Assembly (NCBI GenBank): GCA_003213715.1
Contig: QCMN01000001.1
Coordinates: forward strand, 121,956-180,708
Reading direction: 5' to 3'
DNA length: 58,753 bases
From: Pelagibacteraceae bacterium AG-422-B15
Lineage (GTDB): Bacteria > Pseudomonadota > Alphaproteobacteria > Pelagibacterales > AG-422-B15
The notes beneath the pieces were generated by a model that was not told where the DNA came from, did not search any database, and was given only the letters and a program-made list of their open reading frames with translations. Of the stretch, positions 3,189 to 29,726 are shown in pieces. Each line of letters starts with the position of its first letter. The stretch's first letter is position 1. Made by a program: the position numbers and the translations under genes.

Positions 3189-3197
3189 ATTGTATCA
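3189..3197 (-). promoter_or_regulatory. Extended -10 promoter of the SRP RNA
   Basis: The minus strand reads TGATACAAT, a TGn extended -10 with hexamer TACAAT, five bases before the first G of the RNA stem. No convincing -35 box was seen at the usual distance. The distance to the RNA start and the strong -10 support it as the promoter. It is the nearest candidate promoter for dnaX-ybaB-recR as well. Confidence 0.55.
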
Positions 3198-3235
3198 TAA
3201 CGAAAATAAAATGTTGTTTAATAAATAATAAATTA

Positions 3236-4159: not shown

Positions 4160-4160
4160 A

Positions 4161-5734: not shown

Positions 5735-5822
5735 AAACAAATTATGCGACTAGAAGACGCATAAAAACTTGATTAAATTCGGTTATTGTTTAAATAATTA
5801 TCTAATTACGTCAAGAGACATC

Positions 5823-6377
5823 ATGGATTCATTCGAAATTAATAAAATTGTAGCCTGTGTATTAGTTGTGGCCCTTGTATTTATCGGTTTAGCAAACTTC
5901 AGTGAGATTTTATATCATGTTGAAAAACCTGAGGTAGCAGCCTATCAAGTTGAGGGCGCTGAAGATATGGTGGTGTCTGCATCAGCAGCAATGGCAGACG
6001 ACACTGCTACTGCGGAACCTGAAATACCAATTCAGACTCTGCTTGCATCAGCAGATATAGAAAAAGGTGCAAAGGTCTTTAAGAAATGTTCACAGTGTCA
6101 TGTTGTAGAAAAAGGTGGAGCAAATAAAATTGGTCCAGCGCTCTGGGATATAGTAAATAAAGATATTGGTTCAAAAGAGGATTATAAATACTCAAATGCA
6201 ATGGCGGCATATGGAGGCAACTGGACATACGAGCAACTTAACGGATATCTTTTGAATCCAAAAAAATATATTGAAGGTACAAAAATGTCTTTTGTGGGTC
6301 TAAAAAAAGAAAAAGATAGAGCAAACGTCATACTTTATCTTAGAAGCTTCAGCGATAATCCTGCACCAATTGAATAA
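5823..6377 (+). CDS. cycM: Membrane-anchored cytochrome c (CycM / c552 type)
   Basis: Electron carrier between the bc1 complex and terminal oxidase, anchored in the inner membrane with its haem domain in the periplasm. A single N-terminal helix (about residues 8-28) is uncleaved. An Ala/Glu-rich linker follows, then a class I domain with haem site CSQCH (residues 89-93) and Met155 (GTKMSF) as likely sixth ligand. A start 18 codons upstream would place extra residues before the anchor; the ATG at 5823, preceded by AAGAGA, is preferred. 184 residues. Divergent from kdsB. Confidence 0.9.
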   Translation: MDSFEINKIVACVLVVALVFIGLANFSEILYHVEKPEVAAYQVEGAEDMVVSASAAMADDTATAEPEIPIQTLLASADIEKGAKVFKKCSQCHVVEKGGANKIGPALWDIVNKDIGSKEDYKYSNAMAAYGGNWTYEQLNGYLLNPKKYIEGTKMSFVGLKKEKDRANVILYLRSFSDNPAPIE

Positions 6378-6400
6378 GTCCGAATAATCTGCAATATATT

Positions 6401-6414
6401 GATTGACGTCAGTC
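6401..6414. promoter_or_regulatory. Near-perfect 14-base palindrome upstream of ampG-like gene
   Basis: GATTGACGTCAGTC is a dyad centred on TGACGTCA with one wobble mismatch. It sits 27 bases before the ATG of the AmpG-like permease and 23 bases after the cytochrome c stop. It may be an operator or the stem of an RNA hairpin; there is no T-run, so it is not a standard terminator. No regulator can be named from the sequence. Confidence 0.35.
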
Positions 6415-6440
6415 GGCACTATTACCTATTCTAATATTTA

Positions 6441-7772
6441 ATGACGAGAGAAAATGTAGGATTATCAATTTATTTTGATAACAGAATGCTGCGCATCTTG
6501 CTGCTTGGAGCAATTAGTGGTTTTCCTTGGGTGATAATTGGAAGTGCTCTTTCACTTTGGCTTAAAGATTATGAATTATCAAGAAGTACAATTGGATGGG
6601 CGGGCCTTATTTTTAGTGTATATGCAATTAACTTTATTTGGGCTCCAATTATTGACCGTGTAAAAATTCCTTTCTTGACACAAAAAATTGGCCACAGGAA
6701 ATCGTGGATCATTTCTTTACAGGCAACAATACTGGTATGTCTATTTATTTGGACAACTCTCAATCCTGTTACAAATTTAGAATTAATTATTTTACTTGGA
6801 TTATTGATAGCTGTTTCCTCGGCATCTCAAGATATAACAATTGATGCTTTAAGAATTGAGCAAATAGGTGAGAATGAAAAAGCATCAATGGCAGCTGGCG
6901 CATCAATAGCTGTGGTTGGTTGGTGGACGGGTTATAAAATAGGTGGAATGCTCACACTTTTTGTTGCTGATTATTTTGAACAGCAAGGCTTAGCTAATTA
7001 TTGGCAATTAACTTTTCTGTTCATTTGCTTAATCATTTTTCTTTTTAATATTGGACTTTTATTTATTCCAGAAGATCTATCGAATAAAAGGCAAATTGCT
7101 CAAAAAAGTGATCAAGATCGTTTAAAATTAAATAAATTTTCAGCCTGGTTTGTAAGTACTATCATAAGTCCTCTGATCAGTTTCTTCAAAAAAAATGGGT
7201 TAACCATCAGTCTGTTGATTATCGGGTTCATATTTTTATTTAAAATTGGTGAAGCATTTTTGGGACGTATGTCCATAATATTTTACGACGAAATGGGATT
7301 TTCAAAATCTGATATTGCAATTTACTCAAAAGGACTTGGATGGATAACAACAATTGTATTTACATTATTGGGTGGTTGGTTTTCCATAAAATCAGGTGTT
7401 GTTAGAGCGCTATTCATTTCAGGAATTGCAATGGCGATTACAAACATAATGTTTAGTGTAATGGCATGGTCTGAGAAATCAGTTTTACTCTTTGCTGCCG
7501 CAGTATTACTTGATGATTTGGCTGCAGCTTTTGCAACTGTGGCTTTTGTTACCTTTATTTCGCTACTTGTTGACCGAACGTATACCGCAACTCAATATGC
7601 CCTTTTGGCATCGCTTGGAACAGCTGGAAGAACACTAATGGCATCATCTTCAGGATCATTAGTCGACTGGTTGCAGGGAGATTGGGGTGTTTTCTTTATA
7701 ATTACCGCTGTCATGGTAATTCCTTCATTGATTTTGCTTTGGTTTATTAGAAATAAATTTTCATTCAATTAA
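6441..7772 (+). CDS. ampG: AmpG-family MFS permease (probable muropeptide importer)
   Basis: Twelve-helix major facilitator protein of the AmpG/SLC33-like branch. AmpG imports anhydro-muropeptides from the periplasm for cell-wall recycling. The N-terminus (ISGFPWVIIGSALSLWL, then LSRSTIGWAGLIFS and FIWAPIIDR) is characteristic, as is SSASQDITIDALRIE in helix 4-5 with its acidic residues. 443 residues fits AmpG lengths. Downstream and convergent, one base away, is an NlpC/P60 peptidase that could act on the same muropeptides, which supports a recycling role. The substrate remains inferred. Confidence 0.82.
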   Translation: MTRENVGLSIYFDNRMLRILLLGAISGFPWVIIGSALSLWLKDYELSRSTIGWAGLIFSVYAINFIWAPIIDRVKIPFLTQKIGHRKSWIISLQATILVCLFIWTTLNPVTNLELIILLGLLIAVSSASQDITIDALRIEQIGENEKASMAAGASIAVVGWWTGYKIGGMLTLFVADYFEQQGLANYWQLTFLFICLIIFLFNIGLLFIPEDLSNKRQIAQKSDQDRLKLNKFSAWFVSTIISPLISFFKKNGLTISLLIIGFIFLFKIGEAFLGRMSIIFYDEMGFSKSDIAIYSKGLGWITTIVFTLLGGWFSIKSGVVRALFISGIAMAITNIMFSVMAWSEKSVLLFAAAVLLDDLAAAFATVAFVTFISLLVDRTYTATQYALLASLGTAGRTLMASSSGSLVDWLQGDWGVFFIITAVMVIPSLILLWFIRNKFSFN

Positions 7773-7773
7773 T

Positions 7774-8604
7774 TTACAATCTTCCAAGCTTTTTTATCTT
7801 ACCATTTGATTTTAATATTCTTTTTTTCGCTGTGCTTAGTGGCTCAATCGCAGTTTTCATATGAAAGGCGTTTGCATGAATGATATTCGAATTATCAATC
7901 ATCATTGCAACGTGCCCTTTCCAAAATACTAGATCTCCCGCTTTGAGATCTTTTTCGTACTTTACTTCATTAGTAACGAATATCTCTTGCATATCTGTAT
8001 CCCTTGGAAAAGGCCTATTATTAATCTGATGAAGATTTTGGATTAACCCTGAACAATCTATGCCCATTGAGTCTCTTCCACCCCATAGATAAGGGGTATC
8101 TAAGTATTGTTTTGACAAATCTATATGATTGAATTTGCTACTTTTAACCTTTACAAGATCTAAACTTGGACACCAACCCAAATTTTTAATTAAAGAATAT
8201 TTTCCCTTAATTTTAATTACCTCAACTAATGAGTTAAAACTTAAGTAACCTTTTGTGGCACTTTTTATATCTGGTTTAGTGTAAATAACTGTTCTTAAGG
8301 AGATTACTTTTGAATTAGGTTTATAAGTTTTTCTCGTTAGATTAATAGAAGGAGTATATCCAACATAATTATCTCTTCGAGACTGAATCCAAGACCACCC
8401 ATTTTTAGTTTCAAAAACATCGCATTCTTCACCATACAGTAATTGAGTACTTAATTTTGAACCTTTATTTGAATAAAGTGGAGAAAATGTGCTCTTAACT
8501 GTAGCCAGCTTTGCGTTCACATATTTTTTTCTTTTTACAATAGCTTTATATGCAGATGAAGCTAAATCTCTTCTAATTGGGGTAATTCTTGTATCAAATA
8601 TCAC
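7774..8604 (-). CDS. NlpC/P60 cysteine peptidase with SH3-like domains
   Basis: Probable peptidoglycan peptide hydrolase (gamma-D-Glu to diamino acid bond, as in the YkfC-type family). Two bacterial SH3-like segments occupy about residues 35-155 (for example GEECDVFETKNGWSWI). The NlpC/P60 domain follows, with the catalytic Cys in GIDCSGL near residue 185, His in GHVAMMI and a third polar residue in IIHAN. No signal peptide is seen, so it may act on imported peptides in the cytoplasm, fitting the neighbouring AmpG-like importer. The start is GTG with a weak ribosome site. 276 residues. Confidence 0.88.
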   Translation of the reverse strand: MIFDTRITPIRRDLASSAYKAIVKRKKYVNAKLATVKSTFSPLYSNKGSKLSTQLLYGEECDVFETKNGWSWIQSRRDNYVGYTPSINLTRKTYKPNSKVISLRTVIYTKPDIKSATKGYLSFNSLVEVIKIKGKYSLIKNLGWCPSLDLVKVKSSKFNHIDLSKQYLDTPYLWGGRDSMGIDCSGLIQNLHQINNRPFPRDTDMQEIFVTNEVKYEKDLKAGDLVFWKGHVAMMIDNSNIIHANAFHMKTAIEPLSTAKKRILKSNGKIKKLGRL

Positions 8605-8613
8605 TTCGTAAAA

Positions 8614-8934
8614 TTAAAGGGCAATACCGAGATAGAGAAAAACAATTATTAAAATACCAATTCCACCAAAGATCATGGTCGCCCTAATCGTGACATCTAA
8701 CTCCCTAGCTGCAAATAGGTGATAGATTAATGAGCCGATTAAAGGAATGAACATGACAATAAACGTCCAAATTACTTTTCCAGTCGTGCCTCTGTATTTT
8801 GAAAGAAATAAATCAAATAATGCAGTAGAAGTCCATGTCGCATATAAAAATATGGGGAGATAGTAGCCATAAAAGTTAAAAAATAATGATAAAAACGGTA
8901 CATCATTTAATGGAAAAAAAGTAACACCTGGCAT
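8614..8934 (-). CDS. Small membrane protein, PLDc_N-like
   Basis: 106 residues with about three transmembrane helices (residues 12-36, 51-73, 84-105). The segment GKVIWTFIVMFIPLIGSLIYHL resembles the PLDc_N family (tryptophan, then a long hydrophobic run with a proline, then Gly and Tyr), seen alone or before phospholipase D domains. No phospholipase domain follows here. A clear Shine-Dalgarno AGGAG lies 7 bases before the ATG. It lies between the cupredoxin lipoprotein gene (37 bases upstream) and the NlpC/P60 gene (9 bases downstream), probably in the same minus-strand operon. Function unknown. Confidence 0.7.
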   Translation of the reverse strand: MPGVTFFPLNDVPFLSLFFNFYGYYLPIFLYATWTSTALFDLFLSKYRGTTGKVIWTFIVMFIPLIGSLIYHLFAARELDVTIRATMIFGGIGILIIVFLYLGIAL

Positions 8935-8971
8935 CTAAAATCTCCTGTAAATAGGTTAAACAATTAAACTA

Positions 8972-10630
8972 TTAGTTCAAATAGTTTCTTGCTTCTTCTG
9001 GTAATTCAATATCATTCAGTACATCTTCGAATTGTTGAAAAACCTCGACAGCTGGCTTTACAGACTTTCTGATCATATAGGTAGGTAAATTTTTCTTATC
9101 ATATCCTTGATTTAACAACTTTTCCATAATTGGCATATTTGGTTGATTTTCAGGTTTAGGAAAAGATCTCCAGTCACCTTGTTGATATCCACCGTCACTC
9201 GCATGAATAATTCTTGCAAGCGATGACCACATACCTGAGAGATCTGAGCTAAGTGGAATGTACCCTGCGTCACAATTATTTAAAGACTGTAATCCTGGCG
9301 GTATAGAAGTATTAAAATAGTTTCCTTTAAAACAATTACCAAGATTGGATACGCCACTAATTGCCATGTCTGCCCTGTTAGATGATAAAATTAGATTATC
9401 TTCAACTCTGTTTCCATGGGCTGGCCAATAATTCACATCAGCTGCTGCAGTAAGAATGACGCCATATAAATCATGGTTAGCAATCACATTATTTTTAATT
9501 ATGTTATTATTGCCACCAGCAATGATTACGCCGTTGCCAAAAGATAAGTAAGTTGATTTTGTAGCAGGAGCATCCTTGTTGTTATTATTTTCTATTAAAT
9601 TTCCAATAATGAATGTCTCTCTTTCAGGAGGTAGTAATTCAGAATCTAATGTATTTGGAGCTAGACCTCCTTTATTATTTCTAAATACTGAACTAATAAT
9701 GTAGAGAGAACCTCCAGAATTAGTTCCGGAATAACCTAGTCCGTTATTTTCTGAAATAACATTATTTACAATTGCATCACATGGATAGCATTGCCCAATA
9801 TAAAAACCTGCATCAGGAGATCCTGATGCATATGAATGTTCTAATACACCATCAACTGCATCAAATGCATAAACACCATAGTCACCATTATTATAAGCTG
9901 TTAAATATGACCCTCTGTAACCCTTTACTGTTGCCCAATAAAAACCATTAAGCAATGCGTTACGTGCGGTTATATTTTCAATTGCTACACCGTCTACTCC
10001 TGCAACAAGAACACCATTACCTCTTTCAAATTCACCATCGATAATTGTATTATTTCTATCCCAGCCACGAATTGTTATTGAAGGAACATTGACAACAACT
10101 TCTTCATAGTAAATTCCAGGTTTAATAAGAACTAAGTCCCCAGGATTTGATGCATTAACAGCATCTTGAATTGTCTCATAATCATCAGGTACATTTCTCA
10201 CTGATCCGGAGAAGGATGGAACTACGTCCATTTTTGAGAAGTTTGTATAATCCTCATAATTTATATCACCAACAACAACAGACCCAACCATTCCCCACTC
10301 ACCATCAGGTGATGCATGAAAAGAGCAAAGATATTTATATAATCCCTCAGCTTCATAAGTAATATCTAAGTAATCACCTTTAGGAATCTCTTCGTATGAA
10401 CCCCAGGTTTCATCAACGGCAATTACATTATGTGGATTATTGCCCCAGTTATTGAATCTAACCTTCCCTCCTTCATTTATTCTTACTACTGGTGGAGAGT
10501 ATGAGTTATCAATTACTCGCACTCCAGTAAATGCAGCTGATTGATTTGGATCATTATCGCAAGAAGTAAAAAAAATCAGAGACGATAAGAAGAAGATTAT
10601 GACAATAAAACTTTTTTTTGCAGCTATCAT
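8972..10630 (-). CDS. Lipoprotein with cupredoxin domain fused to a NosD-like parallel beta-helix
   Basis: 552 residues. The N-terminus has a lipoprotein signal (hydrophobic residues 8-22, then FTSC with Cys24). Residues 33-122 are a plastocyanin-like domain with a complete type 1 copper set: His67 (NNPHNV), Cys102 (KYLCSFH), His105 and Met114 (EWGMVG). From about residue 145 to 470 there are repeated right-handed beta-helix turns of the NosD/PbH1 kind, with many Asn residues and motifs such as NVISENN and NNIIKNNVI. It should be a periplasmic or outer-membrane-anchored copper protein. Neither NosZ nor other denitrification genes are nearby, so a role in nitrous oxide reduction is not supported. 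It starts 2 bases after the 72-residue gene with no ribosome site, implying coupling. Confidence 0.82.
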   Translation of the reverse strand: MIAAKKSFIVIIFFLSSLIFFTSCDNDPNQSAAFTGVRVIDNSYSPPVVRINEGGKVRFNNWGNNPHNVIAVDETWGSYEEIPKGDYLDITYEAEGLYKYLCSFHASPDGEWGMVGSVVVGDINYEDYTNFSKMDVVPSFSGSVRNVPDDYETIQDAVNASNPGDLVLIKPGIYYEEVVVNVPSITIRGWDRNNTIIDGEFERGNGVLVAGVDGVAIENITARNALLNGFYWATVKGYRGSYLTAYNNGDYGVYAFDAVDGVLEHSYASGSPDAGFYIGQCYPCDAIVNNVISENNGLGYSGTNSGGSLYIISSVFRNNKGGLAPNTLDSELLPPERETFIIGNLIENNNNKDAPATKSTYLSFGNGVIIAGGNNNIIKNNVIANHDLYGVILTAAADVNYWPAHGNRVEDNLILSSNRADMAISGVSNLGNCFKGNYFNTSIPPGLQSLNNCDAGYIPLSSDLSGMWSSLARIIHASDGGYQQGDWRSFPKPENQPNMPIMEKLLNQGYDKKNLPTYMIRKSVKPAVEVFQQFEDVLNDIELPEEARNYLN

Positions 10631-10632
10631 TT

Positions 10633-10851
10633 TTAAAAACCAACTAACAATCTTCTTGCAAGTCCAATGATAGGTGCAAGAAATCCTAAATTGCCTCTAG
10701 TTAACATAAAGACAACGGCAATTATGATTGCAGCAAAAATAATAATCTTTATGACACGGGATAATTTGCCAGGCTCAGTGTTAACTAAAGCCCTGATTAT
10801 AAAGTATAGAGTTGCTGCCCCGAGAACAAAAAAAACTAAAATTTTAATCAT
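10633..10851 (-). CDS. 72-residue membrane protein resembling the N-terminus of TIM14-like DnaJ proteins
   Basis: Two hydrophobic helices (residues 2-22 and 35-54) with a final RGNLGFLAPIIGLARRLL segment. The layout (membrane helix, basic loop, second helix, then TRGxLGxLxPLxGL) recalls the membrane-bound N-terminal part of alphaproteobacterial DnaJ-domain proteins, where a J domain would follow. Here translation stops and no HPD motif is present in the following sequence. The gene abuts the cupredoxin lipoprotein gene (2 bases), so the pair are very likely co-translated. The relationship is by pattern only; function unknown. Confidence 0.6.
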   Translation of the reverse strand: MIKILVFFVLGAATLYFIIRALVNTEPGKLSRVIKIIIFAAIIIAVVFMLTRGNLGFLAPIIGLARRLLVGF

Positions 10852-10902
10852 GACAAATTTTCCAATTAAAGATTAATTTGACTGGGAAAATAAATCAACT
10901 GG

Positions 10903-11466
10903 TTAAAGATTATTCTCTAGCTCATATTTCTTTATTGCTTCAGCTAACTCGATTTTTTCTGAACAATTGAAGATACAGATATCTGTTAATATTGCTAGGT
11001 TTTCAAGGGCCATTTCGTATCGATCTGTTTGTAAATAAAGCTCACCTTGATAGGCCAATATATCGTCATGTCGAGGCTCAATTTCTAAACCTGTATTATA
11101 ATATAGTTCTGCGTCATCAAATTTGCCCAGTTTGCGACTTGCAAAGCCAATTAAATTCCAACCGTTTGCATTTTGAGGATTTTCATAAACATAAATTTCT
11201 AAGTCTTTGAGCGCACCTTGATAATTCTCATTCTTTTCGATTTCAAACAGAATTCGTTTTAACTCCTTATCATAGCCAGTGCTTCCCGAATAACTTCCTC
11301 CTCCACTATCAGAACTACCTCCTGAGCTGCCTCCAGAACTACCACCTGAGCTGCCTCCAGAACTACCTCCAGAACTACCTCCTGAGCTGCCTCCACCGTC
11401 ATTTTTGGCTGAAACAGAAAAAGCCAAGCTGATACTGATAAGGATGATAAAGATTATATTTTTCAT
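10903..11466 (-). CDS. Exported TPR protein with Gly-Gly-Ser-Ser repeat linker
   Basis: 187 residues from the ATG at 11466, chosen because AGGA lies 5 bases upstream and the protein then opens with a clean signal peptide (MKNIIFIILISISLAFSVSA). A start 32 codons further upstream would spoil it. After the cleavage site is a low-complexity Gly/Ser linker with seven GGSS units, then tetratricopeptide repeats from about residue 75 to the C-terminus (for example NPQNANGWNLIGFASRKLG, YNTGLEIEPRHDDILAYQGE). It is predicted to be periplasmic and to bind proteins. It leads the minus-strand operon with the 72-residue and cupredoxin genes. Confidence 0.82.
   Translation of the reverse strand: MKNIIFIILISISLAFSVSAKNDGGGSSGGSSGGSSGGSSGGSSGGSSGGSSDSGGGSYSGSTGYDKELKRILFEIEKNENYQGALKDLEIYVYENPQNANGWNLIGFASRKLGKFDDAELYYNTGLEIEPRHDDILAYQGELYLQTDRYEMALENLAILTDICIFNCSEKIELAEAIKKYELENNL
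11311..11394 (-). repeat. Seven 12-base tandem repeats encoding Gly-Gly-Ser-Ser
   Basis: Exactly 84 bases made of seven 12-base units of two sequence variants, GGAGGTAGTTCT and GGAGGCAGCTCA, in a non-random order (B A A B A' B A on the coding strand). The pattern suggests expansion by multi-unit duplication. Because the unit is a multiple of three, changes in copy number alter linker length without breaking the frame. Confidence 0.9.
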
Positions 11467-11509
11467 ATTTTCCTGAAATAATTCTAATGTTATACATTTC
11501 AATAGAAAA

Positions 11510-12334
11510 ATGACTGAATTAGACATATACGCATATGGCATACCAATTGTTCTATTACTCATTACAGCAGAGGTAATTTACTCAACTGTAAATGGGTTAG
11601 GTTTGTATAAATTTAGAGATACCCTAGCGGGTCTAGGATTGTTAATTGGAAATTTTATGATTGGGCTTCTAACAAAAAGCTCAATTTTTTTTCTATACAT
11701 TTATCTTTACCAATTCAAATTTATTACAGTGAATGAACTGCTTCCAACATGGGCTGTTTGGATCGTAACTTTTGTAATGATTGACTTTGTATACTACTGG
11801 TATCATCGCTTTTCGCATAGAGTTCGTTTCATGTGGGCAGTTCACATGAACCATCATTCTAGTGAGGAAATGAACTTTACTGTTTCATTGAGGCAAGCTT
11901 GGTTTGGGCCGATAACAAAAGTGCCATTTTTCATTGTAATGCCGTTAATAGGATTTGATCCAATTATTACTGCTGTAGCAGGAGTTGCGTCTACACTTTG
12001 GGGCGTAATTGGGCACACGCAATGGATAAGACGACTAGGTGTTTTAGAATACATTTTAGTTACTCCTTCATCACACAGAGTTCACCATGGCAGCAATGAA
12101 TGCTACATTGATAAGAATTACGGTAACTTACTAATCGTATGGGATAGACTTTTTGGAACTTTTGCAGAGGAAATTGAGCCTGTAAGATTTGGTATCAGAG
12201 AAAATGTGAAAACATTTAATCCTATCAAAATAACTTTTATGTTTTGGCAGCAAATGGTTTCGGATTTTAAAAATTCAAAAAACCAAAAGGAAAGATTCCT
12301 CTCATTCTTTGGTAAGCCTGAGTGGAAGCCGTGA
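11510..12334 (+). CDS. Fatty acid hydroxylase / sterol desaturase family protein
   Basis: Integral membrane di-iron oxygenase. The eight-histidine signature is present: HRFSH at 99-103, HMNHH at 112-116, and HRVHH at 189-193, with His169 (IGHT) between them and the family's NYGNLLIVWDRLFGTF at 203-218. About four hydrophobic helices precede and surround the motifs; 274 residues is typical for the bacterial subfamily. The substrate (lipid, carotenoid or hopanoid) cannot be told from sequence. It is divergent from the TPR gene (43 bases) and its stop directly abuts the convergent 75-residue gene. Confidence 0.88.
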   Translation: MTELDIYAYGIPIVLLLITAEVIYSTVNGLGLYKFRDTLAGLGLLIGNFMIGLLTKSSIFFLYIYLYQFKFITVNELLPTWAVWIVTFVMIDFVYYWYHRFSHRVRFMWAVHMNHHSSEEMNFTVSLRQAWFGPITKVPFFIVMPLIGFDPIITAVAGVASTLWGVIGHTQWIRRLGVLEYILVTPSSHRVHHGSNECYIDKNYGNLLIVWDRLFGTFAEEIEPVRFGIRENVKTFNPIKITFMFWQQMVSDFKNSKNQKERFLSFFGKPEWKP

Positions 12335-12562
12335 TTATCTTGGATTATTTTGAATAAATTCAATAAATTTCTCAAGTTCGGGTATTTTATCGTCTTCTAT
12401 ATCTTTATATGACATTCCAAAGTGATTTTTTATTTCAAGTGCAATATGAGCATAAGGATTTCGACCTTTTGGGTGTGAGGGATGGTCGGGCAACCTACCA
12501 ATAAGTTCGTCACCAGTTTTCTGAATTAATTTCCAAATTTTTTTTTTATTATCTTCATTCAT
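12335..12562 (-). CDS. Conserved-looking small soluble protein, unknown function
   Basis: 75 residues, highly charged, with no signal or membrane segment. Two predicted helical ends (residues 1-19 and 56-73) surround a Pro/His/Gly-rich middle, LPDHPSHPKGRNPYAH, and a GMSYKDIEDD turn. The composition and exact abutment with the convergent hydroxylase gene argue that it is a real gene and not an antisense shadow. I do not recognise a family. Confidence 0.6.
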   Translation of the reverse strand: MNEDNKKKIWKLIQKTGDELIGRLPDHPSHPKGRNPYAHIALEIKNHFGMSYKDIEDDKIPELEKFIEFIQNNPR

Positions 12563-12639
12563 ATTTAGCTGAAATATAAAAATAAATAAAAACAGTTAGT
12601 TAATATTTATTATTCTAATATATGCCGCCAATCTGGCAA

Positions 12640-12680
12640 ATAATTATTATTAATAATTATCCATACTATTTAATAATAGT
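12640..12680. promoter_or_regulatory. Two adjacent palindromes before the MarR-like gene (candidate operators)
   Basis: Positions 12640-12660 form a perfect 10-base inverted repeat about a central T (ATAATTATTA/TAATAATTAT). Positions 12665-12680 form a second dyad, ACTATT-TAAT-AATAGT. Both lie within 70 bases of the MarR-like ATG. Winged-helix regulators of this kind commonly bind such dyads at their own promoters, so autoregulation is inferred. The AT-richness of the genome means chance palindromes are possible. A GCC/GGC mini-hairpin lies just upstream near 12624-12637. Confidence 0.4.
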
Positions 12681-12706
12681 TTCTGAATTCACTATTGAGG
12701 TATTTT

Positions 12707-13084
12707 ATGAAAACTGAAAAAATTTTTGAGCAAGTTATAAAACAAATTAAAGTTTTTGAAAGTGCTGGTGACAGAAAGGTTTTCAGCCGTTTAAGTCACT
12801 TTCGCCGATCAGTCTATGGTATAAGAATATGCTATGAGATAATGAGACTATATTTTGATTCAAATATTAATAAAATTGAGTGCACTAAAGAATATCTAAC
12901 AAAAAACATGTCAGATCTTGCTTCGAGAGCAACTATAATTAATTTTATTAACGATGAAATAAGCAAAGGATCACTTGTTACTCAAGTCAGCTCAAAAGAT
13001 AAGAGGGTTAAGATAATCCAGCCAGCAAGTGAATTAATTGATGAATTCACAATGTGGCTAGATATGATAGATAAAGCAGCTTAA
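12707..13084 (+). CDS. MarR-like winged-helix transcriptional regulator
   Basis: 125 residues from the ATG at 12707, preceded by GAGG at a spacing of 6; an in-frame TTG 4 codons earlier is less likely. The central part resembles a helix-turn-helix (LTKNMSDLASRATIINFINDE), followed by a probable wing, SSKDKRVKIIQPASELI, matching the MarR pattern of Asp/Lys-Arg-x-Lys then a hydrophobic strand and a helix. The N-terminal half is helical and could dimerise. Two palindromes upstream are possible self-operators. It abuts the convergent cold-shock gene. The ligand and targets are unknown. Confidence 0.65.
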   Translation: MKTEKIFEQVIKQIKVFESAGDRKVFSRLSHFRRSVYGIRICYEIMRLYFDSNINKIECTKEYLTKNMSDLASRATIINFINDEISKGSLVTQVSSKDKRVKIIQPASELIDEFTMWLDMIDKAA

Positions 13085-13291
13085 TTATTCTGCAGCTTGT
13101 AGATTTACTGCTGAGACTTTTCCATCTTTTTCCTCAGCGTCGTATGATAGTTTTTGGCCTTCATCCAATTTTTTCATACCAGCAGCTTGAACAGCTGTGA
13201 TGTGAACAAAGATATCTTTATCGCCTTCTTCAGGAGCAATAAATCCATAACCTTTTTTTGGATTAAACCATTTAACAGTACCAGTAGCCAT
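13085..13291 (-). CDS. Cold-shock domain protein
   Basis: 68-residue single cold-shock domain that binds single-stranded nucleic acid. The RNP1 motif KGYGFI and RNP2 motif DIFVH are intact; the N-terminus [14 protein letters not shown] is standard. A Shine-Dalgarno AAGGAA lies 8 bases before the ATG. The gene is divergent from a MATE pump across about 190 bases, enough for a leader of the kind cold-shock genes often carry, though I see no specific structure. It abuts the MarR-like gene stop codon to stop codon. Confidence 0.95.
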
Positions 13292-13483
13292 AGTTGTTAT
13301 TCCTTTTTTATTAAATTTAGACTTCGTATTACTCCAAAAAAAGGAACAAAAACGTAATCTTTAGACGGATCTTATAACTATATATAGACTAAAAGTAAAT
13401 TGTTTTAATTTTAATTATTCAATTAACTTAACATTTAGATTTGCATAATACTCATATCTAAATAAAAGGTATAACTTGATGTT

Positions 13484-14845
13484 ATGGATCTCACTAAAGA
13501 TAATATTTCAACTTTAATAAGGCAAATTGCAATACCTTCAAGTATTGGTACTCTTTTTCAAACACTCTATAACATCGTAGATGTTAAGTTTGCTGGATTA
13601 ATATCGCCAGATGCTATCACTGCTATTGCAAAATCATTTCCAATTTACTTCATTATTATTGGATTTACTGCAGGTTTATCCATAGGAGTTACAGCACTAA
13701 TTTCAAATGCCCTTGGAAAAAATGATGAAAAAAAAGCATCGCTCCTTCTTGCGCAGGCTATTATTACTAGTTTAATTGCATCTGTTCTAATTACATTAGT
13801 TGGAATTTATGGAACAGAACCTATTCTTGTATTTTTGAAAACAAATCCTGAAATTATATTCTATGCAAAGGACTATATGGATATAATTTTCATTGGTGCC
13901 TCACTGTTTTTTTTACAATTGACTATTAATTCATTTCTAGCTTCTAAAGGGGATACAAAGTCTTTGAGAAATGTCCTAATTATTTCATTCTTTCTTAATC
14001 TAGTTTTGAATCCCACATTTATTTATGGGATATATTTCATTCCTGCAATGGGAGTGAAGGGTATAGCCTTAGCAACATTATGTTCACAACTGTTTGGACT
14101 AATTTATATTGTTATGACGGTAAATAAGACAAATTTAAAGAAATTTCTTTACCCGCAATGCTTCGTGCCCAAATTTAATTTACAAAAGGAAATTTTAACT
14201 CAAGCAGTTCCCGCAACAATTTCAATGATGTTCATTGGTTTGGGGGTTTTTGTCTTATTGTTTTATGTTTCAACCTACGGGGATTATTCAGCAGGCGGGT
14301 ATGGTGCAGCAATCCGCTTTGAACAACTTTTCCTATTACCTGTTTTAGGCTTAAATGCTTCTACTCTTGCTTTAGTTGGTCAAAATTTTGGTGCTATGAA
14401 TTTTAGTAGAATTCATGAGACTTATAATAAGTCAATTTTTTATGGAACTTTCTTTATGGCTATATGTGGACTATTTATTTTCTTTTTATCAGACTACATC
14501 ATGTACTTTTTTAGCGATAATAAAGAAATTATTTTTTATGGATCAACCTACTTGAAGATCGCTGCATTTGCCGGACCTTGCTATCCAATTTTCTTTATAT
14601 CGTCAGCATTACTTCAAGGACTTAAAAAACCAAATTATCAAATGATAATTAATTTAATGAGAATGGTGATATTGCCAGTCTGCGGACTGTCCGTTGCAGT
14701 TCTCTATTTAAAAGTTGATTTTACTACAATGTTTTTAGTGATATTGATAATTAACTACATATTTGCAGCAACTGTCTACAAGTTTTCGACTTACCAAATT
14801 GGCTTTATGCAAAAAAACTATAATCCAAACTTTGATGCCGTTTGA
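13484..14845 (+). CDS. MATE family efflux transporter
   Basis: 453-residue inner-membrane antiporter with about twelve helices in two MatE repeats (residues 14-170 and 235-395). It opens IRQIAIPSSIGTLFQTLYNIVD, the usual first helix, with VKFAGLISPDAITAIA and NPTFIYGIYFIPAMGVKGIALATL as further family landmarks. It would export cationic or drug-like compounds using a proton or sodium gradient; the substrate is unknown. Its 3' end overlaps the convergent binding-protein gene by 28 bases. Confidence 0.9.
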   Translation: MDLTKDNISTLIRQIAIPSSIGTLFQTLYNIVDVKFAGLISPDAITAIAKSFPIYFIIIGFTAGLSIGVTALISNALGKNDEKKASLLLAQAIITSLIASVLITLVGIYGTEPILVFLKTNPEIIFYAKDYMDIIFIGASLFFLQLTINSFLASKGDTKSLRNVLIISFFLNLVLNPTFIYGIYFIPAMGVKGIALATLCSQLFGLIYIVMTVNKTNLKKFLYPQCFVPKFNLQKEILTQAVPATISMMFIGLGVFVLLFYVSTYGDYSAGGYGAAIRFEQLFLLPVLGLNASTLALVGQNFGAMNFSRIHETYNKSIFYGTFFMAICGLFIFFLSDYIMYFFSDNKEIIFYGSTYLKIAAFAGPCYPIFFISSALLQGLKKPNYQMIINLMRMVILPVCGLSVAVLYLKVDFTTMFLVILIINYIFAATVYKFSTYQIGFMQKNYNPNFDAV

Positions 14846-15582
14846 TTGAAAAATCCTTTATTTTTTTGATCTGAAATCCAATGATTTATAAAGTTTATCC
14901 ATTCTTGGTCACCTCTCGGTAACAAGATTGCGAATAGTTTTGCATTTTTAGGCTCATCAATATTTATGATTGATAGCTCTGGATATAAGTTGATAAGCTT
15001 CAAAGCGTCAACTTTGCTTGTTAATGATACATCAGCTCTTCCTGATAACACTTCCTGATATTCACGTGCAGGAGCTTCAACCATCACAATTTTAGAATCT
15101 GGAAACGATTTTTTAGCTTCATTTTCAAAGACTGTTCCGAGCGTAACAGCAACTGTTGTATTGGCATTATTGATGTTATCCCAGCTTCCAATATTGTCTA
15201 AATTCTTAGCCAGTGTCATTGCTACCGTTCCAGTACCATAATATGAATTCGAATAACCAGCAGTAAGTGCTCTCTGAGTCGTTATTGAAGCACTGGATGT
15301 CATGTGGTATTTAGAGGCCACCACACCTGAAACAAGATTTTTCCAATCTGTTGCAACAAATTCAATATCAACACCCATATCTTCAGCTAGTTTTTTTGCT
15401 ACATCAATATCGTAGCCTTCATATTCATTCGTTTCAGGATTCATAAAGCTCCAGCTTGGAAAATCGCCGGTTGTTCCGACTTTAAGTACACCAGTTTTCA
15501 TAATTTCATCTAGTGTCGATGCATGTGATAAAGATGAGATAAATAATGCTATAGAAATTAATAGGGCTTGAATGAGCTTCAT
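14818..15582 (-). CDS. Periplasmic substrate-binding protein, amino-acid ABC type (SBP family 3, PheC-like)
   Basis: 254 residues with a cleavable signal peptide (MKLIQALLISIALFISSLSHA). The mature protein starts TLDEIMKTGVLKVGTTGDFP, a family 3 binding-protein opening. GTTGDF and the YEGYDIDVAKKLAEDMGVDIEFV region resemble cyclohexadienyl dehydratase-like members as well as true amino-acid receptors, so an enzymatic role cannot be excluded. AGAGGA lies upstream of the ATG. It is divergent from an amino-acid permease gene (73 bases between), which favours transport. No ATP-binding subunit is encoded in the window near them. Confidence 0.85.
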   Translation of the reverse strand: MKLIQALLISIALFISSLSHASTLDEIMKTGVLKVGTTGDFPSWSFMNPETNEYEGYDIDVAKKLAEDMGVDIEFVATDWKNLVSGVVASKYHMTSSASITTQRALTAGYSNSYYGTGTVAMTLAKNLDNIGSWDNINNANTTVAVTLGTVFENEAKKSFPDSKIVMVEAPAREYQEVLSGRADVSLTSKVDALKLINLYPELSIINIDEPKNAKLFAILLPRGDQEWINFINHWISDQKNKGFFNQTASKFGL

Positions 15583-15655
15583 ATGATTTTCCTCTTTTTA
15601 ATATTTTTTAAAAATTATACGTTTATATTTAAATAATATAATTATATTTTTTATC

Positions 15656-16411
15656 ATGAATTTCAACATAACTGGAAAAATCAATGTCTACTTGCTTTTG
15701 TCTTTATTAGTATTAGCAGGATGTTCATCAAATTATCAATGGGGTTGGTATGTAATTCTGCCAAATAATAAGATTGGAATATCGAATATAGAATTCTTAA
15801 TTGGTGGTTTGGGTTACACCATAATCTTATCGGTAATTTCAATTATAATAGCAATATTTTTGGGCTTAATTGTATCTGTTGCGAGCATTTCAAGAAATAG
15901 AGCTCTTAACTACATAAATGTCGGCTATACAGAGATAATTCGAGCAATACCAGTTTTAGTCATGATTTTGTGGGTTTACTATGGATTACCTGTTTTGCTA
16001 AACTTAAATTTTACTGCATTTACTGCAGGGATCATCGCATTGAGTATCTGCGAAAGCCCATTTATAGCAGAGATTTTCAGATCTGGAATCCAAGCCGTGC
16101 CAAAGGGTCAAAAAGAAGCCGGTTCGTCTATGGGCTTGAATTTTTTTCAAATTTTCTACCACATCACGTTACCTCAAGCGGTTAGAATAATTTTACCTGC
16201 ATTGGGCAATCAATTTGTGTACATGCTCAAGATGTCATCACTTGTATCAATCATCGGTCTAAATGAGCTTACAAGAAAAGCTAATGAGCTCGTAGTTAGT
16301 CAGTATCGACCTTTAGAAATTTATACATTTTTGGTATTAGAATATTTAGTCCTAATTTTAGTAGTTTCTTTTTTAGTAAGACGCCTTGAAAAGAGACTGA
16401 AGGTTTATTAA
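15656..16411 (+). CDS. Amino-acid ABC transporter permease with lipoprotein-like N-terminus
   Basis: 251 residues of the HisM/GlnP type. About five transmembrane helices surround the ATPase-contact EAA loop (QKEAGSSMGLNFFQIFYHIT, near residues 159-178). ELTRKANELVVSQ near the end is typical of polar amino-acid permeases. The N-terminus is unusual: LLSLLVLAGCSSNYQWGW reads as a lipobox with Cys23. The gene shares a divergent promoter region with the binding protein and overlaps the convergent selO stop by four bases. Its ATPase must lie elsewhere. Confidence 0.88.
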   Translation: MNFNITGKINVYLLLSLLVLAGCSSNYQWGWYVILPNNKIGISNIEFLIGGLGYTIILSVISIIIAIFLGLIVSVASISRNRALNYINVGYTEIIRAIPVLVMILWVYYGLPVLLNLNFTAFTAGIIALSICESPFIAEIFRSGIQAVPKGQKEAGSSMGLNFFQIFYHITLPQAVRIILPALGNQFVYMLKMSSLVSIIGLNELTRKANELVVSQYRPLEIYTFLVLEYLVLILVVSFLVRRLEKRLKVY

Positions 16412-17868
16412 GTCCCACAAAAAGTTTTATAGGGAATATTTGTTTTGCTTGGTGTTTCCAAATATTTGATATTTACTTTTTTTAACTGGTAAGGTGAAGA
16501 AATGATTTCATTAAGCTCATTAAATTTATCAAACTTGCCGTCTGTTTCTGCTTCACTAAGTGCTTCTTCAACCAAATAATTTCTTGGAATTAAAGTTGGA
16601 TTACAGCTAATCATCACATCTAAATATTCCTTACTTTCAACTCTTTTTTTCCATTCTCTTTTCCAATTATTAAACTCATCATCTTCAAATTCTTCATCGT
16701 CTGCATGATCATATTTCATTAAATTACAAAAAGTATTTGTAAAATCCGGTTTTTTTTGTTGCATCCATTTGATTAAGTTATTGATGAGTTCTTCATCATC
16801 TTCACTCTGATCTTTAATACCTAGTTTTTTTTTCATCATTTGAAGCCATTTGTCCTTAAACAATGAACTAAAAGTGTTGATTAAGTTTTGAGCTATTTCA
16901 ATTGATCTTTTCTCATCTTTATCGATGAGTGGTAATAAGCACTCTGCTAACCTCACTAAGTTCCATTGAATTATTGAAGGTTGATTGGCAAAAGAATATC
17001 TTCCTTGCGTATCAATTGAACTAAAAACTGTATTGGCATCATAATGATCCATGAAAGCACATGGCCCATAATCAATTGTCTCTCCTGATATTGTTGAATT
17101 ATCTGTATTCATTACCCCATGAATAAATCCAACACGCATCCATTCTACAATCAAATTAATCTGTTTTTGCATGACAGCTTTTATGAATTCAATCGCTAAA
17201 TTTTCCGAAAATATTAAATTACTGAAATGTCTTTTTATTGAGAAATCCAAAAGAGATTTCATGCCTTCATAATCTTTATGTGCCGCTAAAAATTGAAAAG
17301 TACCAATTCTTATATGGCTACTTGCTACTCGTGTTAAAATAGATCCTTTTAATGGAACTTCTCGGTAGACTTTTTCGCCAGTCTCAACAACTGCTAAGCT
17401 TCTTGTTGTTGGAATACCTAAATAATACATTGCTTCACTTATCAAATATTCGCGTAACATTGGTCCCAATGCAGCCTTACCATCTCCGCCTCTTGAATAA
17501 GGTGTTCGCCCTGAGCCTTTATACTGGATATCAAATATTTCACCGTCTGGAGTTATTTGCTCACCAACGATGTGGGCTCTACCGTCTCCAAGAATTGTAA
17601 ATTGTCCAAATTGGTGTCCTGCATAAGCCTGTGCAAATGGCTTTGAACCATGAGGCAGTGAATTTCCTGAGAATAAATTGGATAAGTCTTCTTCCGAGAT
17701 ACCTTTTAAATTTAGGCCAAGCTTTTCGGCCAGTTCATTATTAACAATGACAGTACTTGGATTAGTAACTGCATCTGGTTTTAATTCTGAAAACAGCTTG
17801 TCAGATAATTGGGTATAACTACTTTGTAAATTCCACCCTGAATCAGAAAGGGATACATTATTTTTCAT
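16408..17868 (-). CDS. selO: SelO (YdiU) protein adenylyltransferase (pseudokinase fold)
   Basis: Transfers AMP from ATP to protein Ser/Thr/Tyr; implicated in redox homeostasis. Landmarks are YAGHQFGQFTILGDGRAH, YKGSGRTPYSRGGDGKAAL, REYLISEAMYYLGIPTTRSL and the active-site NTDNSTISGETIDYGP with the DYGP metal residue. 486 residues is normal. The extreme C-terminus is TFCGT, keeping a Cys near the position where eukaryotic SelO has selenocysteine. The ATG is 44 bases from the divergent yjbQ gene; the stop overlaps the permease stop by four bases. Confidence 0.94.
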   Translation of the reverse strand: MKNNVSLSDSGWNLQSSYTQLSDKLFSELKPDAVTNPSTVIVNNELAEKLGLNLKGISEEDLSNLFSGNSLPHGSKPFAQAYAGHQFGQFTILGDGRAHIVGEQITPDGEIFDIQYKGSGRTPYSRGGDGKAALGPMLREYLISEAMYYLGIPTTRSLAVVETGEKVYREVPLKGSILTRVASSHIRIGTFQFLAAHKDYEGMKSLLDFSIKRHFSNLIFSENLAIEFIKAVMQKQINLIVEWMRVGFIHGVMNTDNSTISGETIDYGPCAFMDHYDANTVFSSIDTQGRYSFANQPSIIQWNLVRLAECLLPLIDKDEKRSIEIAQNLINTFSSLFKDKWLQMMKKKLGIKDQSEDDEELINNLIKWMQQKKPDFTNTFCNLMKYDHADDEEFEDDEFNNWKREWKKRVESKEYLDVMISCNPTLIPRNYLVEEALSEAETDGKFDKFNELNEIISSPYQLKKVNIKYLETPSKTNIPYKTFCGT

Positions 17869-26086: not shown

Positions 26087-27103
26087 TTATCCATTACGGT
26101 AGGTATATGAGTAGCCATTAATAGCTGGAACTCCGCCAAGATGAGCATAGAGTATTTTAGATCCTTTTTTAAAGTAACCTTTCCTGGCTAAATCAATCAT
26201 TCCTTGCATAGATTTGCCCTCATAAACAGGATCGGTAATCATGGCTTCAGTTTTTGCTGCCATACGAATAGCCTCATTAGTTTCTTCACTCGGAACTCCG
26301 TATGCTGGATATGCATAGTCAGGAATTATTATTATTTCATCATCTCTAATTGTTCTTCCAAGTTCAACTAAATCAGCTGTATTATCTACAATTTCTCTTA
26401 CTTGCTTGACTAATTTATCTGGTGTACCCGATCCATCAATGCCTATGACTCTGTGTGCACGGTCATCTTCTGCGAACCCAACGATCATCCCCGCCTGAGT
26501 TGAGCCAGTAACTACACACACAATGATGTAATCAAATTTTAATGACATATCTTTTTCTTGCATTCGAACTTCTTCAGCAAATCCTACGTATCCCAGTCCA
26601 CCATATTTATGAACAGATGCCCCAGCTGGAATTGGATAAGGCTTACCACCGCTATCTTTCACGGATTGAATTGCGTCTTCCCAACTTTTCCTAATCCCAA
26701 TATCAAAACCATCAGGTACTAGCCTGCTATCTGCTCCCATCAAACGCGTCATTAAAATATTACCAACACGATCATAAACTGCATCTTCATGAGGAACCCA
26801 ACTTTCTTGAACAACAACACACCTCATGCCAATTTTAGCTGCAGTTGCAGCTACCATTCTAGTATGGTTAGATTGAACACCACCAATAGAAACTAATGTA
26901 TCAGCTCCGGATGCAATAGCGTCTGGAACGATGTATTCTAGTTTTCTTAGTTTATTCCCACCCATAGCCAGACCTGAATTACAGTCATCTCTTTTGGCGT
27001 ATATATCGACATCAGCTCCTATTTCTTTGGTTAAACGAGGCAAATATTCTATTGGAGTAGGACCAAAAGTAAGTGAATATTTCTCAAATTTATCTAAATT
27101 CAT
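26087..27103 (-). CDS. acdS: 1-aminocyclopropane-1-carboxylate (ACC) deaminase
   Basis: PLP enzyme that splits ACC, the plant ethylene precursor, into 2-oxobutyrate and ammonia. With the ATG at 27103 it has 338 residues, and every diagnostic residue falls on the number known for the Pseudomonas enzyme: Lys51 ([10 protein letters not shown]), Ser78, Tyr268, Tyr294, and especially Glu295 and Leu322, which separate true ACC deaminase from D-cysteine desulfhydrase. An alternative ATG two codons upstream would break this numbering. It is convergent with ggt. No lrp-type acdR regulator is adjacent. It may equally be used on marine sources of ACC. Confidence 0.88.
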
Positions 27104-27149
27104 ATCCATCAGATTATAGGAAAATTTTTCAATGAAAATAACTTTAAAA

Positions 27150-27207
27150 TGGCGGAAAGGATGGGATTCGAACCCACGATACGGTCACCCGCATACACGC
27201 TTTCCAA
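27150..27207 (-). repeat. Duplicated 3' part of tRNA-Ser (attachment-site copy)
   Basis: 58 bases identical to 27837-27894, from the CCA end through the T arm, variable arm and anticodon loop of tRNA-Ser(GGA). Identity stops at the anticodon loop, a usual crossover boundary for tyrosine-integrase elements. It lacks the 5' half and cannot be a functional tRNA. Confidence 0.9.
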
Positions 27208-27305
27208 TTCATGAGTCCAAGATTAGAGGATAATTTTTATAAGTAAACGGGGAATTAAATTATGGGAAGTTATAAATTATATTCTTTGGTTGGAATGAAG
27301 ATGGG

Positions 27306-27725
27306 CTAAGGATTTGAGAGAAAGTTTGATGCATCCTCCTCTTCCATTTCATACATCCACCCATTTATCTTTCTAACTTTTTCATAAAATTCTTTATCGC
27401 GCATAGCTTCATATAGCAAGTTTTGACTTGTGCCTTTTTTGTTAGCGCGATGTATTGCGATCATAATAGAAAATCCAGGTATAAACCACCACCATGCAGA
27501 TGTAATACTTAAATATATAGAATATCCAAATATTCCTACAGCTACGCATGACCAAAAGTGCATTGCGATAGAACTTAACATAGACTTGGGAGAGTAATCC
27601 AAACTATCAGCTAACCTTATAGATAAATCATTTTCCATGCCAAGATTAAGTTTTCCTGATTTTCTTAACTCAATCATTTGCTCATGTGTTAGACTCACTT
27701 CGTGAGATGAGTATCTTTTCTTCAT
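27306..27725 (-). CDS. Membrane protein carried between tRNA-Ser att repeats, unknown
   Basis: 139 residues. A soluble N-terminal part (SSHEVSLTHEQMIELRKSGK, then NDLSIRLADSLDYS) precedes two hydrophobic helices (about residues 54-73 and 75-92) and a charged C-terminal helix (LYEAMRDKEFYEKVRKINGW). I recognise no family. It is the only gene between the two attachment-like repeats and so is presumably cargo. Its stop codon overlaps a TGGGCTAA repeat. Base composition looks like that of its neighbours. Confidence 0.55.
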   Translation of the reverse strand: MKKRYSSHEVSLTHEQMIELRKSGKLNLGMENDLSIRLADSLDYSPKSMLSSIAMHFWSCVAVGIFGYSIYLSITSAWWWFIPGFSIMIAIHRANKKGTSQNLLYEAMRDKEFYEKVRKINGWMYEMEEEDASNFLSNP

Positions 27726-27836
27726 TATAAAATACTCTATTTACTTTCTGACTAATTAAAAGTCTAAATTGTGTGGGCTAAAATTGGGCTAAATGAAAGT
27801 ATTTTTATAAACTTTAGATTAAGTTTTTTCTAGAAA

Positions 27837-27926
27837 TGGCGGAAAGGATGGGATTCGAACCCACGATACGGTCACCCGCATACACGCTTTCCAAGCGTGC
27901 GCCTTCAACCACTCGGCCACCTTTCC
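27837..27926 (-). tRNA. tRNA-Ser (GGA)
   Basis: 90 bases including an encoded CCA. The acceptor stem GGAAAGG pairs with CCTTTCC, and the long variable arm and GGTTCGAATCCC T arm fit class II tRNA-Ser. The anticodon stem CACGC/GCGTG holds loop TTGGAAA, anticodon GGA (reads UCC/UCU). Its 5' base directly follows the lepA stop, so it may be processed from the lepA transcript. Its 3' part is duplicated at 27150-27207. Confidence 0.96.
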
Positions 27927-29726
27927 TTATTCAACTTTTAAAGCAGCTATAAAGGCCTCTTGTGGAATATCGACCTTACCGTAAGTTCTAAGTCTCTGTT
28001 TTCCTTTTTTCTGCTTATCAAGTAATTTTCTTTTTCTGTCTGTAGCTCCGCCACCATGTATTCTCTCAATAACATTTTTACGGTATCCTCTGACAGTTTC
28101 GCGAGCAATAATTTTTCCACCAATTGCTGCCTGGATTGGAATATGGAATTGATGACGAGGAATTAATTCCTTCAATTTTTCACAGACTGCTCGACCTTTT
28201 TTTTCAGAAAAACTTCGGTGAACAATGATTGATAGCGCATCTACTGATTCATCATTTACCAATATACTCAATCTGACCAGATCACTTTCAATATATTCAT
28301 CAATCTCATAATCAAAACTTGCATATCCACTAGAAATTGACTTCAAGCGATCATAAAAATCAAAAACAATTTCATTTAAAGGCAGCTTATAATTTAGAAT
28401 TACTCTTGATCCAGAATAAGATAATTCTGTTTGCATACCTCTCTTATCTTCACAGAGAGATATGATGCTGCCTAAATATTCATCGGGACAAATAATTGTT
28501 GCTTTAATCCAAGGCTCAGAGATGCTTTTAATCTTCATAACTTCAGGCATATCTGCTGGATTATGTAATTCAAATGAGCTTCCGTCGTTTAAAACTAAAT
28601 TATAAATAACGCTTGGAGCTGTAGTTATTAAATCTAAATTGAATTCTCTATCAAGTCTTTCAACAATAATTTCTAAGTGTAATAATCCAAGGAAACCACA
28701 TCTAAAACCCATTCCAAGAGCTGCTGAGGTTTCTTGTTCGAAATGAAAACTAGAGTCATTTAGCTTTAACTTCGCTAATGCGTCTTTCAAGAATTTAAAA
28801 TCAGCTGCATTTGTTGGGAATAAACCACAAAATACCACAGGCTGACTTGGCTTGAATCCAGGTAAAGGCTCTGTCTGTTTGTCATTCGCCAGCAATATTG
28901 TATCCCCAACCTTAGTTTGGGCTACTTCTTTAATTGCAGCAGTTATAAAACCTAATTCACCAGTATTGATGTACTCATTATCAATCATTTTTGGCGTGAA
29001 ACAGCCAATTCTTTCTATTAAATGTTTTGTATTAGTTTGATGAAAACGAACCTCCATACCTTTTTTTAGAATTCCATCTATCACTCGAACCAATATTACA
29101 ACACCTAGGTAAGCATCATACCAACTATCTACTAACATTGCTTTTAATTGTTTGCTTTCATCACCTACTGGAGATGGTAATTCGTTTACAATATTTTCTA
29201 AGACTTCTTCAATGCCGAGACCTGATTTAGCAGAAATTTCAATTACATTACTGGTATCAATACCTAAAATATCTTCTATTTGTTTTTTTACTCTCTCGGG
29301 GTCAGCTGCTGGTAAATCTATTTTATTTAAAACGGGTATAATTACGTGATCATTTTCTACTGCTTGATATAAATTAGCTAATGTTTGAGCTTCAACGCCC
29401 TGACTAGCATCAACAACTAAAAGTGATCCCTCGCAAGCAGATAATGATCTGTTCACTTCGTAACTAAAGTCAACATGGCCAGGCGTATCAATAATATTAA
29501 GTGTGTACGTTTCACCATTTTTTGCCTTGTATTTTAATTGTACAGTTTGAGCCTTGATTGTTATTCCACGTTCTCTTTCAATATCCATAGAGTCAAGCAC
29601 CTGTGCTTTCATTTCTCTTTCAGATAGCCCACCACAGAATTGGATCAACCTATCAGCTAAAGTAGATTTTCCATGATCAATATGAGCTATAATAGAAAAA
29701 TTTCTTATGTTTTTAGTGCCAGTCAT
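27927..29726 (-). CDS. lepA: Elongation factor 4 (LepA)
   Basis: Ribosome-associated GTPase affecting translocation and initiation under stress. G1 [10 protein letters not shown]3 DTPGHVDF and G4 NKIDLP are at about residues 15, 79 and 133. Domain II, two EF-G-like domains and the LepA-specific C-terminal domain with [12 protein letters not shown] and [10 protein letters not shown] follow. 599 residues is standard. It lies 12 bases after pheT and its stop touches tRNA-Ser. Confidence 0.97.

Follow-up and report, generated by a model that had tools for sequence, protein, structure and literature searches.

The tRNA-Ser(GGA) locus

In the window (the whole 58,753-bp stretch of Pelagibacteraceae bacterium AG-422-B15 that was analysed), a short unit with a single open reading frame (ORF) lies beside a tRNA-Ser(GGA) gene, between two host genes (Table 1). 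The unit is bounded by a 61-bp direct repeat whose two copies (27147-27207 and 27834-27894) are 100% identical and start 687 bp apart. The right copy corresponds to the 3' part of the tRNA gene, and its end falls in the anticodon loop, a usual crossover region for tyrosine integrases. The tRNA is whole at the right end of the unit, and a truncated copy of it marks the far (left) end. The original prediction of a 687-base unit with one cargo gene and no integrase agrees with these measurements; its identical repeats do end at the anticodon loop, at a length of 61 bp rather than the 58 given.

The octamer TGGGCTAA occurs three times within the 687 bp (one copy on the left, two on the right), against 1.8 copies expected in all 58,753 bp. 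The original prediction placed such repeats near both ends of the unit; this holds for the two right copies, whereas the left arm has one good repeat only, its second period being degenerate, and is less complete than the right arm. We regard the repeats as meaningful, as putative arm-type integrase sites.

Table 1. Features of the tRNA-Ser(GGA) unit and its flanks (window coordinates)
Feature	Position	Strand	Remarks
Distal flanking host gene, resembles 1-aminocyclopropane-1-carboxylate deaminase (by inspection)	26087..27109	-	in relatives with an empty site, directly adjoins their one tRNA copy
Distal attachment-site copy (truncated 3' half of tRNA-Ser(GGA))	27147..27207		61-bp perfect direct repeat; no second copy in nine empty-site relatives
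Core-proximal left end, ~76 bp	27208..27283		77-97% conserved among otherwise different units at the same tRNA (G041, G030, G003, G039, G020, G046)
Left putative arm-type integrase site TGGGCTAA	27302..27309	+	second period TTTGAGAG degenerate; overlaps the ORF stop codon
Cargo gene	27306..27725	-	139 aa, with two membrane segments predicted by inspection; belongs to no known family
Right putative arm-type pair TGGGCTAA-N3-TGGGCTAA	27774..27792	+	11-bp period; copies at 27774-27781 and 27785-27792
tRNA-Ser(GGA), intact	27837..27926	-	3' part 27837-27894 is the second attachment-core copy
Proximal flanking host gene lepA, elongation factor 4 (by inspection)	27927..29726	-	adjoins the tRNA across the family

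The cargo gene was found in none of the 147 relatives searched and in no other genome of its family. A homologue with 60% identity was identified in a genome of another SAR11 family (G394), where it lies just inside a tRNA-Thr 3' half, in a unit whose visible part on the contig has similar repeats at either end. Based on a pN/pS of 0.36, the gene is under purifying selection, which indicates that it encodes a real protein. The product had no match in Pfam, NCBIfam, PHROG or PADLOC, a search for viral relatives of the protein found none, and its predicted structure was poor (pLDDT 62, pTM 0.27).

No integrase is encoded within the unit. The assembly to which the window belongs (1.09 Mb, 36 contigs, 86% complete) contains only two PF00589 proteins, both Xer-like and on other contigs; their length and their conservation throughout the family suggest XerC and XerD. 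The relatives that share the tRNA core are recorded as uncultured Pelagibacteraceae or Candidatus Pelagibacterales (SAR11), and nearly all have AG- isolate names, which we take to denote GORG single cells.

Empty and alternatively occupied sites

In nine genomes of the same genus (G033, G034, G028, G004, G029, G031, G014, G021 and G026), the matches to the two flanks of the unit overlap by exactly 61 bp: the left-flank match stops at the end of the left repeat, and the right-flank match begins at the start of the right repeat. The insertion at the tRNA is therefore precise and polymorphic, and the unit is mobile in evolutionary terms. Perfect repeat identity, on which the original prediction based its argument for recency, is weak evidence, as the tRNA half hardly varies within the genus; recency is better argued by the empty sites, since the flanks of those relatives are 93-97% identical. 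The original prediction would have been refuted by a unit fixed in all distant relatives, with neither empty sites nor other contents. Both were found, the latter as different units in ten further family genomes, and the unit is not fixed in all relatives.

Units are present in 11 of the 43 family genomes with a readable tRNA-Ser locus (window counted), and their contents differ. They measure 1024 bp (G041), 1389 bp with a truncated second unit (G030), 757 bp (G020), 1922 bp (G039), 3152 and 823 bp (G003), 1898 bp (G047), 2575 bp (G050), ~1356 bp (G046), 1325 bp (G049) and 853 bp (G040), those in G030 and G003 being arranged in tandem. Some of these units look decayed, such as the one in G041, with a distal core at 91.7% and arms that do not match. 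Units at tRNA-Ser are also present in the other SAR11 family examined (L141, L142, L143 and L156).

Among the cargo of the other units are prepilin-like proteins, a protein similar to GcvT, a cupredoxin together with a cytochrome c, and a T5orf172 protein. The last is carried by the G030 unit with the 198-aa ORF (L046) and matches the candidate defence family PDC-S57 (E 4e-71); cassettes of this kind may therefore spread phage defence. Prepilin-like genes (KGFTLIELLVVVAIIGVLAAVG) are recurrent cargo in L046, L054 and L283, with three consecutive genes in L054, which hints at variation of pili and of receptors for phage or DNA uptake.

Putative arm-type sites and their distribution in SAR11

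Direct repeats with an 11-bp period were identified in ~14 of 18 units; they lie ~79-99 bp inward from the left core and ~50-82 bp ahead of the right core. The repeated word varies between units and agrees across both ends of a single unit: in the window's family the words are TGGGCTAA, GTGACCA, GCGGTCA, GCGGCAA, TGTGGAAG and TTTGACACC, and in the other SAR11 family GACGGCA, GACGACC and GACGCCC. The mean left-right match score of a unit's own pair was 11.08, compared with 8.19 (SD 0.44) for permuted pairs and 7.36 in shuffled sequence, and none of 20,000 permutations scored as high. For the window unit the match is modest (rank 4 of 18); the case for arm sites is made by the whole set of units, not by the window unit alone.

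The pair TGGGCTAA-N3-TGGGCTAA was found nowhere else in 397 SAR11 genomes. Matches in viral contigs numbered 57, mostly chance-like, and only two of them adjoin integrases. These two lie just past the integrase stop codon in non-SAR11 prophage contigs (L227 and L265), and one of the two repeat pairs adjoins a tRNA-like attachment site, which suggests an arm-site class common to distant hosts. The stretches concerned, in which the repeat directly follows the integrase gene, are L227:10809-12045 and L265:1799-3006; the L265 contig is groEL-adjacent. In two further prophages (L271 and L269), a core beside an integrase has TGTGACCA pairs on either side. Mycobacteriophage attP sites likewise have two pairs of 11-bp arm repeats around the core (PMC3203893). 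Since real prophages have these repeat pairs on either side of an attachment core next to an integrase gene, the repeats of the units can be read as integrase arm-type sites, and the anatomy of a unit as an attP without an integrase gene. The window unit has two features expected of lambda-type attP, attL and attR sites, namely a duplicated tRNA 3' core ending in the anticodon loop and direct repeats of arm type on two sides. The attP of mycobacteriophage CrimD (PMC3203893) and those of L271 and L269 resemble it in their tRNA-matching core and their 11-bp-period pairs on both sides; however, they lie beside their own integrase gene, whereas the attP of a SAR11 unit encloses cargo only.

We also searched the 397 SAR11 genomes for TGTGACCANAGTGTGACCA, allowing up to two mismatches; this analysis identified 27 matches in 25 genomes, compared with two for a reversed control pattern. 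Nineteen of the 27 matches lie ≤250 bp from a tRNA or a tRNA 3' fragment, at recurring distances, against a background of 25 of 200 windows that is conservative because the windows were taken from tRNA-Ser loci. The adjoining tRNAs are Thr(TGT), Ser(GGA), Glu(TTC), Leu(TAG) and Val(TAC). Partial tRNA copies mark units at tRNA-Thr (one to three per locus), tRNA-Leu and tRNA-Glu; no second tRNA copy was found in the extended tRNA-Val loci. One-to-three-gene units of like design are thus present at tRNA-Ser and at least three other tRNA genes in many SAR11 relatives.

The tRNA-Thr(TGT) gene is a second hotspot, where L306, L310, L312 and L314 (G088, G221, G213 and G266, all Pelagibacteraceae) carry one to three tandem units bounded by 3'-half copies and lacking an integrase. 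In L314, the tRNA copy farther from the tRNA is the more diverged (96% versus 100%), which is the order expected if new units insert at the tRNA end. The tRNA-Thr cargo proteins in L285, L290 and L292 are unrelated, albeit with a near-identical signal peptide (MKKLLGIVVLGLLLS...), as if secreted domains had been swapped behind one leader.

The arm-like repeats might instead be sites for a transcription factor or another host protein, with the tRNA-half repeat arising from homologous recombination rather than from an integrase. Short AT-rich motifs do arise by chance, as most of the 57 viral matches to the TGGGCTAA pair appear to have done; nevertheless, the unit-specific matching of the two ends, the constant distances from the core, the enrichment beside tRNAs and the motifs beside prophage integrases all count against host sites, and repeated cuts in the anticodon loop of several tRNAs are not what homologous recombination would produce. 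We therefore regard this explanation as very improbable indeed.

Integrase searches and probable recombination in trans

A six-frame search of all fetched tRNA-Ser loci detected no integrase, and positive-control integrase loci were detected. No integrase was found beside the units at tRNA-Thr, tRNA-Leu or tRNA-Glu; one conserved Xer-like recombinase lies ~5 kb from the tRNA-Glu unit. Since many of the genomes are incomplete, a single cell may have an integrase on a contig that was not assembled, but this is not plausible for all of them. No helper integrase with the core or the arm variant of the window was found in IMG/VR, GenBank phages or SAR11 genomes. Searches of IMG/VR with the tRNA-Ser core, exact and degenerate, returned no match or three unrelated contigs, and in INPHARED the core matched phage tRNA genes, the remaining matches being weak.

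The few integrases of the family that are not Xer-like are located in other islands, none of them beside tRNA-Ser: on a prophage contig (G050), in an island near tRNA-Lys (G049), near tRNA-Gly (G007) and in a satellite-like island (G032). The prophage-like stretch in G050 (L105, contig C19, 6582-12622) encodes a 519-aa integrase and a phage-type DNA polymerase; the tRNA-Ser core was not found in this stretch, which by its class is a possible helper candidate. The island in G007 (L107, contig C14, ~3195-9000), beside tRNA-Gly(GCC), encodes a 177-aa protein similar to HUH replication initiators and two tyrosine recombinase-like genes; it resembles a rolling-circle or filamentous element that has integrated into SAR11. 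The ~8-kb satellite-like island in G032 (L108, contig C1, ~9434-17538), near ggt, encodes an integrase and an 809-aa primase/helicase-like protein.

Two other candidates were rejected. A 325-aa tyrosine recombinase (L305:3673-4647, in G061) has orthologues with 62-95% identity in 13 further genomes of the other SAR11 family (L323-L334) and scores 69 bits against XerC/XerD cut-offs of ~330; as a resident integrase it was dismissed, being absent from the window's family and with no arm-binding domain seen. Integration that exploits XerC/XerD was ruled out, as the core is a tRNA half.

The original prediction left two explanations, a decayed island or a minimal satellite that borrows an integrase. 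Under decay, a larger integrase-bearing element at the tRNA would have lost its integrase and other genes and left an immobile remnant. Integrase loss is an accepted origin of many non-autonomous elements (PMC11389934), and in some units, such as that of G041, one arm is gone or the cores have diverged. However, units occupy 11 of the 43 readable tRNA-Ser loci and none has an integrase. Most retain intact arms and cores at both ends, with cargo ORFs taking up the interval from one arm to the other, and units with other cargo and other arm variants recur independently. Had decay acted alone, intermediates holding part of an integrase would be expected, and none was seen. We consider decay quite improbable, and for the window unit, with both arms, both cores and the ORF intact, the borrowed integrase is favoured, although that integrase itself was not found.

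Based on this evidence, the unit is very probably an integrative cassette that is not autonomous: its attP is complete, and the integrase that recombines it comes in trans. As a circle, it would carry a complete phage-type attP, with a 58-61 bp tRNA-Ser core and arm sites on both sides, ~60 bp from the core on one side and ~95 bp on the other. A tyrosine integrase of the phage or arm-binding class, encoded elsewhere, would recombine this attP with the 3' half of tRNA-Ser(GGA); after integration the tRNA would remain whole and a truncated copy would mark the far end, and excision would be the reverse reaction. We infer that the integrase would come from infecting or co-resident phages or satellites, and that different arm variants may correspond to different helpers; the chances that the helper is specifically a phage are about even. 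The DNA could pass between cells by co-excision with a neighbouring element, by transduction, or by (natural) transformation.

A related explanation is a co-mobilised cassette similar to cis-mobilizable elements (CIMEs), whose movement depends entirely on an autonomous element that inserts in tandem, after which both excise as a pair. Given the shared cores and the tandem arrays, excision across the outer cores would be possible, and such accretion has been described for integrase-less tandem islands in Dehalococcoides (PMC3146451). Like CIMEs, the window unit has attL and attR without recombination or transfer genes; however, no autonomous mobilising neighbour was found in tandem at the tRNA-Ser, tRNA-Thr, tRNA-Leu or tRNA-Glu units, including the tRNA-Ser and tRNA-Thr arrays, and each unit has kept its own two-sided arms, which co-excision does not need. 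We judge this explanation unlikely. It is compatible with a cassette recombined in trans, since the integrase acts in trans in both, and the two differ in whether the cassette leaves alone or with a neighbour.

The Dehalococcoides ssrA islands that lack an integration module (PMC3146451) are similar to the SAR11 units in being bounded by copies of an RNA-gene 3' end, in their tandem arrangement, and in carrying cargo and no integrase. Whereas about half of the Dehalococcoides islands carry a recombinase, a serine recombinase (PMC3146451), none of the SAR11 units does, and these are 0.7-3 kb long with putative two-sided arm-type sites of a tyrosine integrase. The locus conforms to an additive flexible genomic island in having variable cargo behind repeated tRNA 3' ends at one site. 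Within the accessible text of PMC10872708, the additive islands of 'Ca. Methylopumilus' at tRNA-Lys have a 20-nt repeat, range from 330 bp to 42 kb and contain mostly unknown genes; they share with the SAR11 units the recurring tRNA 3'-end repeats beside a tRNA in streamlined aquatic bacteria, but that text describes neither arm sites, which the SAR11 units putatively have, nor a trans-acting mechanism. The SAR11 cassettes differ from CIMEs and additive islands in three respects: their size, the lack of any recombinase at the loci of the family, and putatively helper-specific arms on both sides.

Tycheposons, as summarised in PMC10872708, are also marine, integrate at tRNAs and carry cargo; however, they span 4-200 kb and carry an internal tyrosine recombinase, whereas the window unit is 687 bp long with no recombinase. 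CALINs and MITEs (PMC11389934) are similarly non-autonomous, with a recombinase or transposase acting in trans, but the SAR11 units have a tRNA core with arms in place of attC sites or inverted terminal repeats, and the enzyme class differs; the window unit is bounded by tRNA halves rather than by the attC hairpins that IntI recognises in integron cassettes. Phage satellites (PICI, P4-like) have their own integrase and genes for replication or packaging interference, whereas the window unit has a single ORF of no known family. We found no description of such cassettes in the literature searched, which leaves out most subscription papers.

SAR11 are among the most abundant bacteria in the ocean, with small genomes and few obvious mobile elements. 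There is perhaps an even chance that they share a pool of tiny, tRNA-targeted, recombinase-less cassettes of one to three genes, arrayed like integron cassettes, moved only by the integrases of passing phages or satellites, and switching helpers by a change of arm sites. Existing metagenomes can be searched for the predicted circle junctions, and the arm motif can serve as a tag for pairing each cassette with its helper integrase. Cassettes with complete attachment sites at several tRNAs would provide a concrete route by which the variable genes of SAR11 arrive and, if the pool exists, a streamlined genome could try out genes for the cell surface and for defence without the cost of mobility genes.
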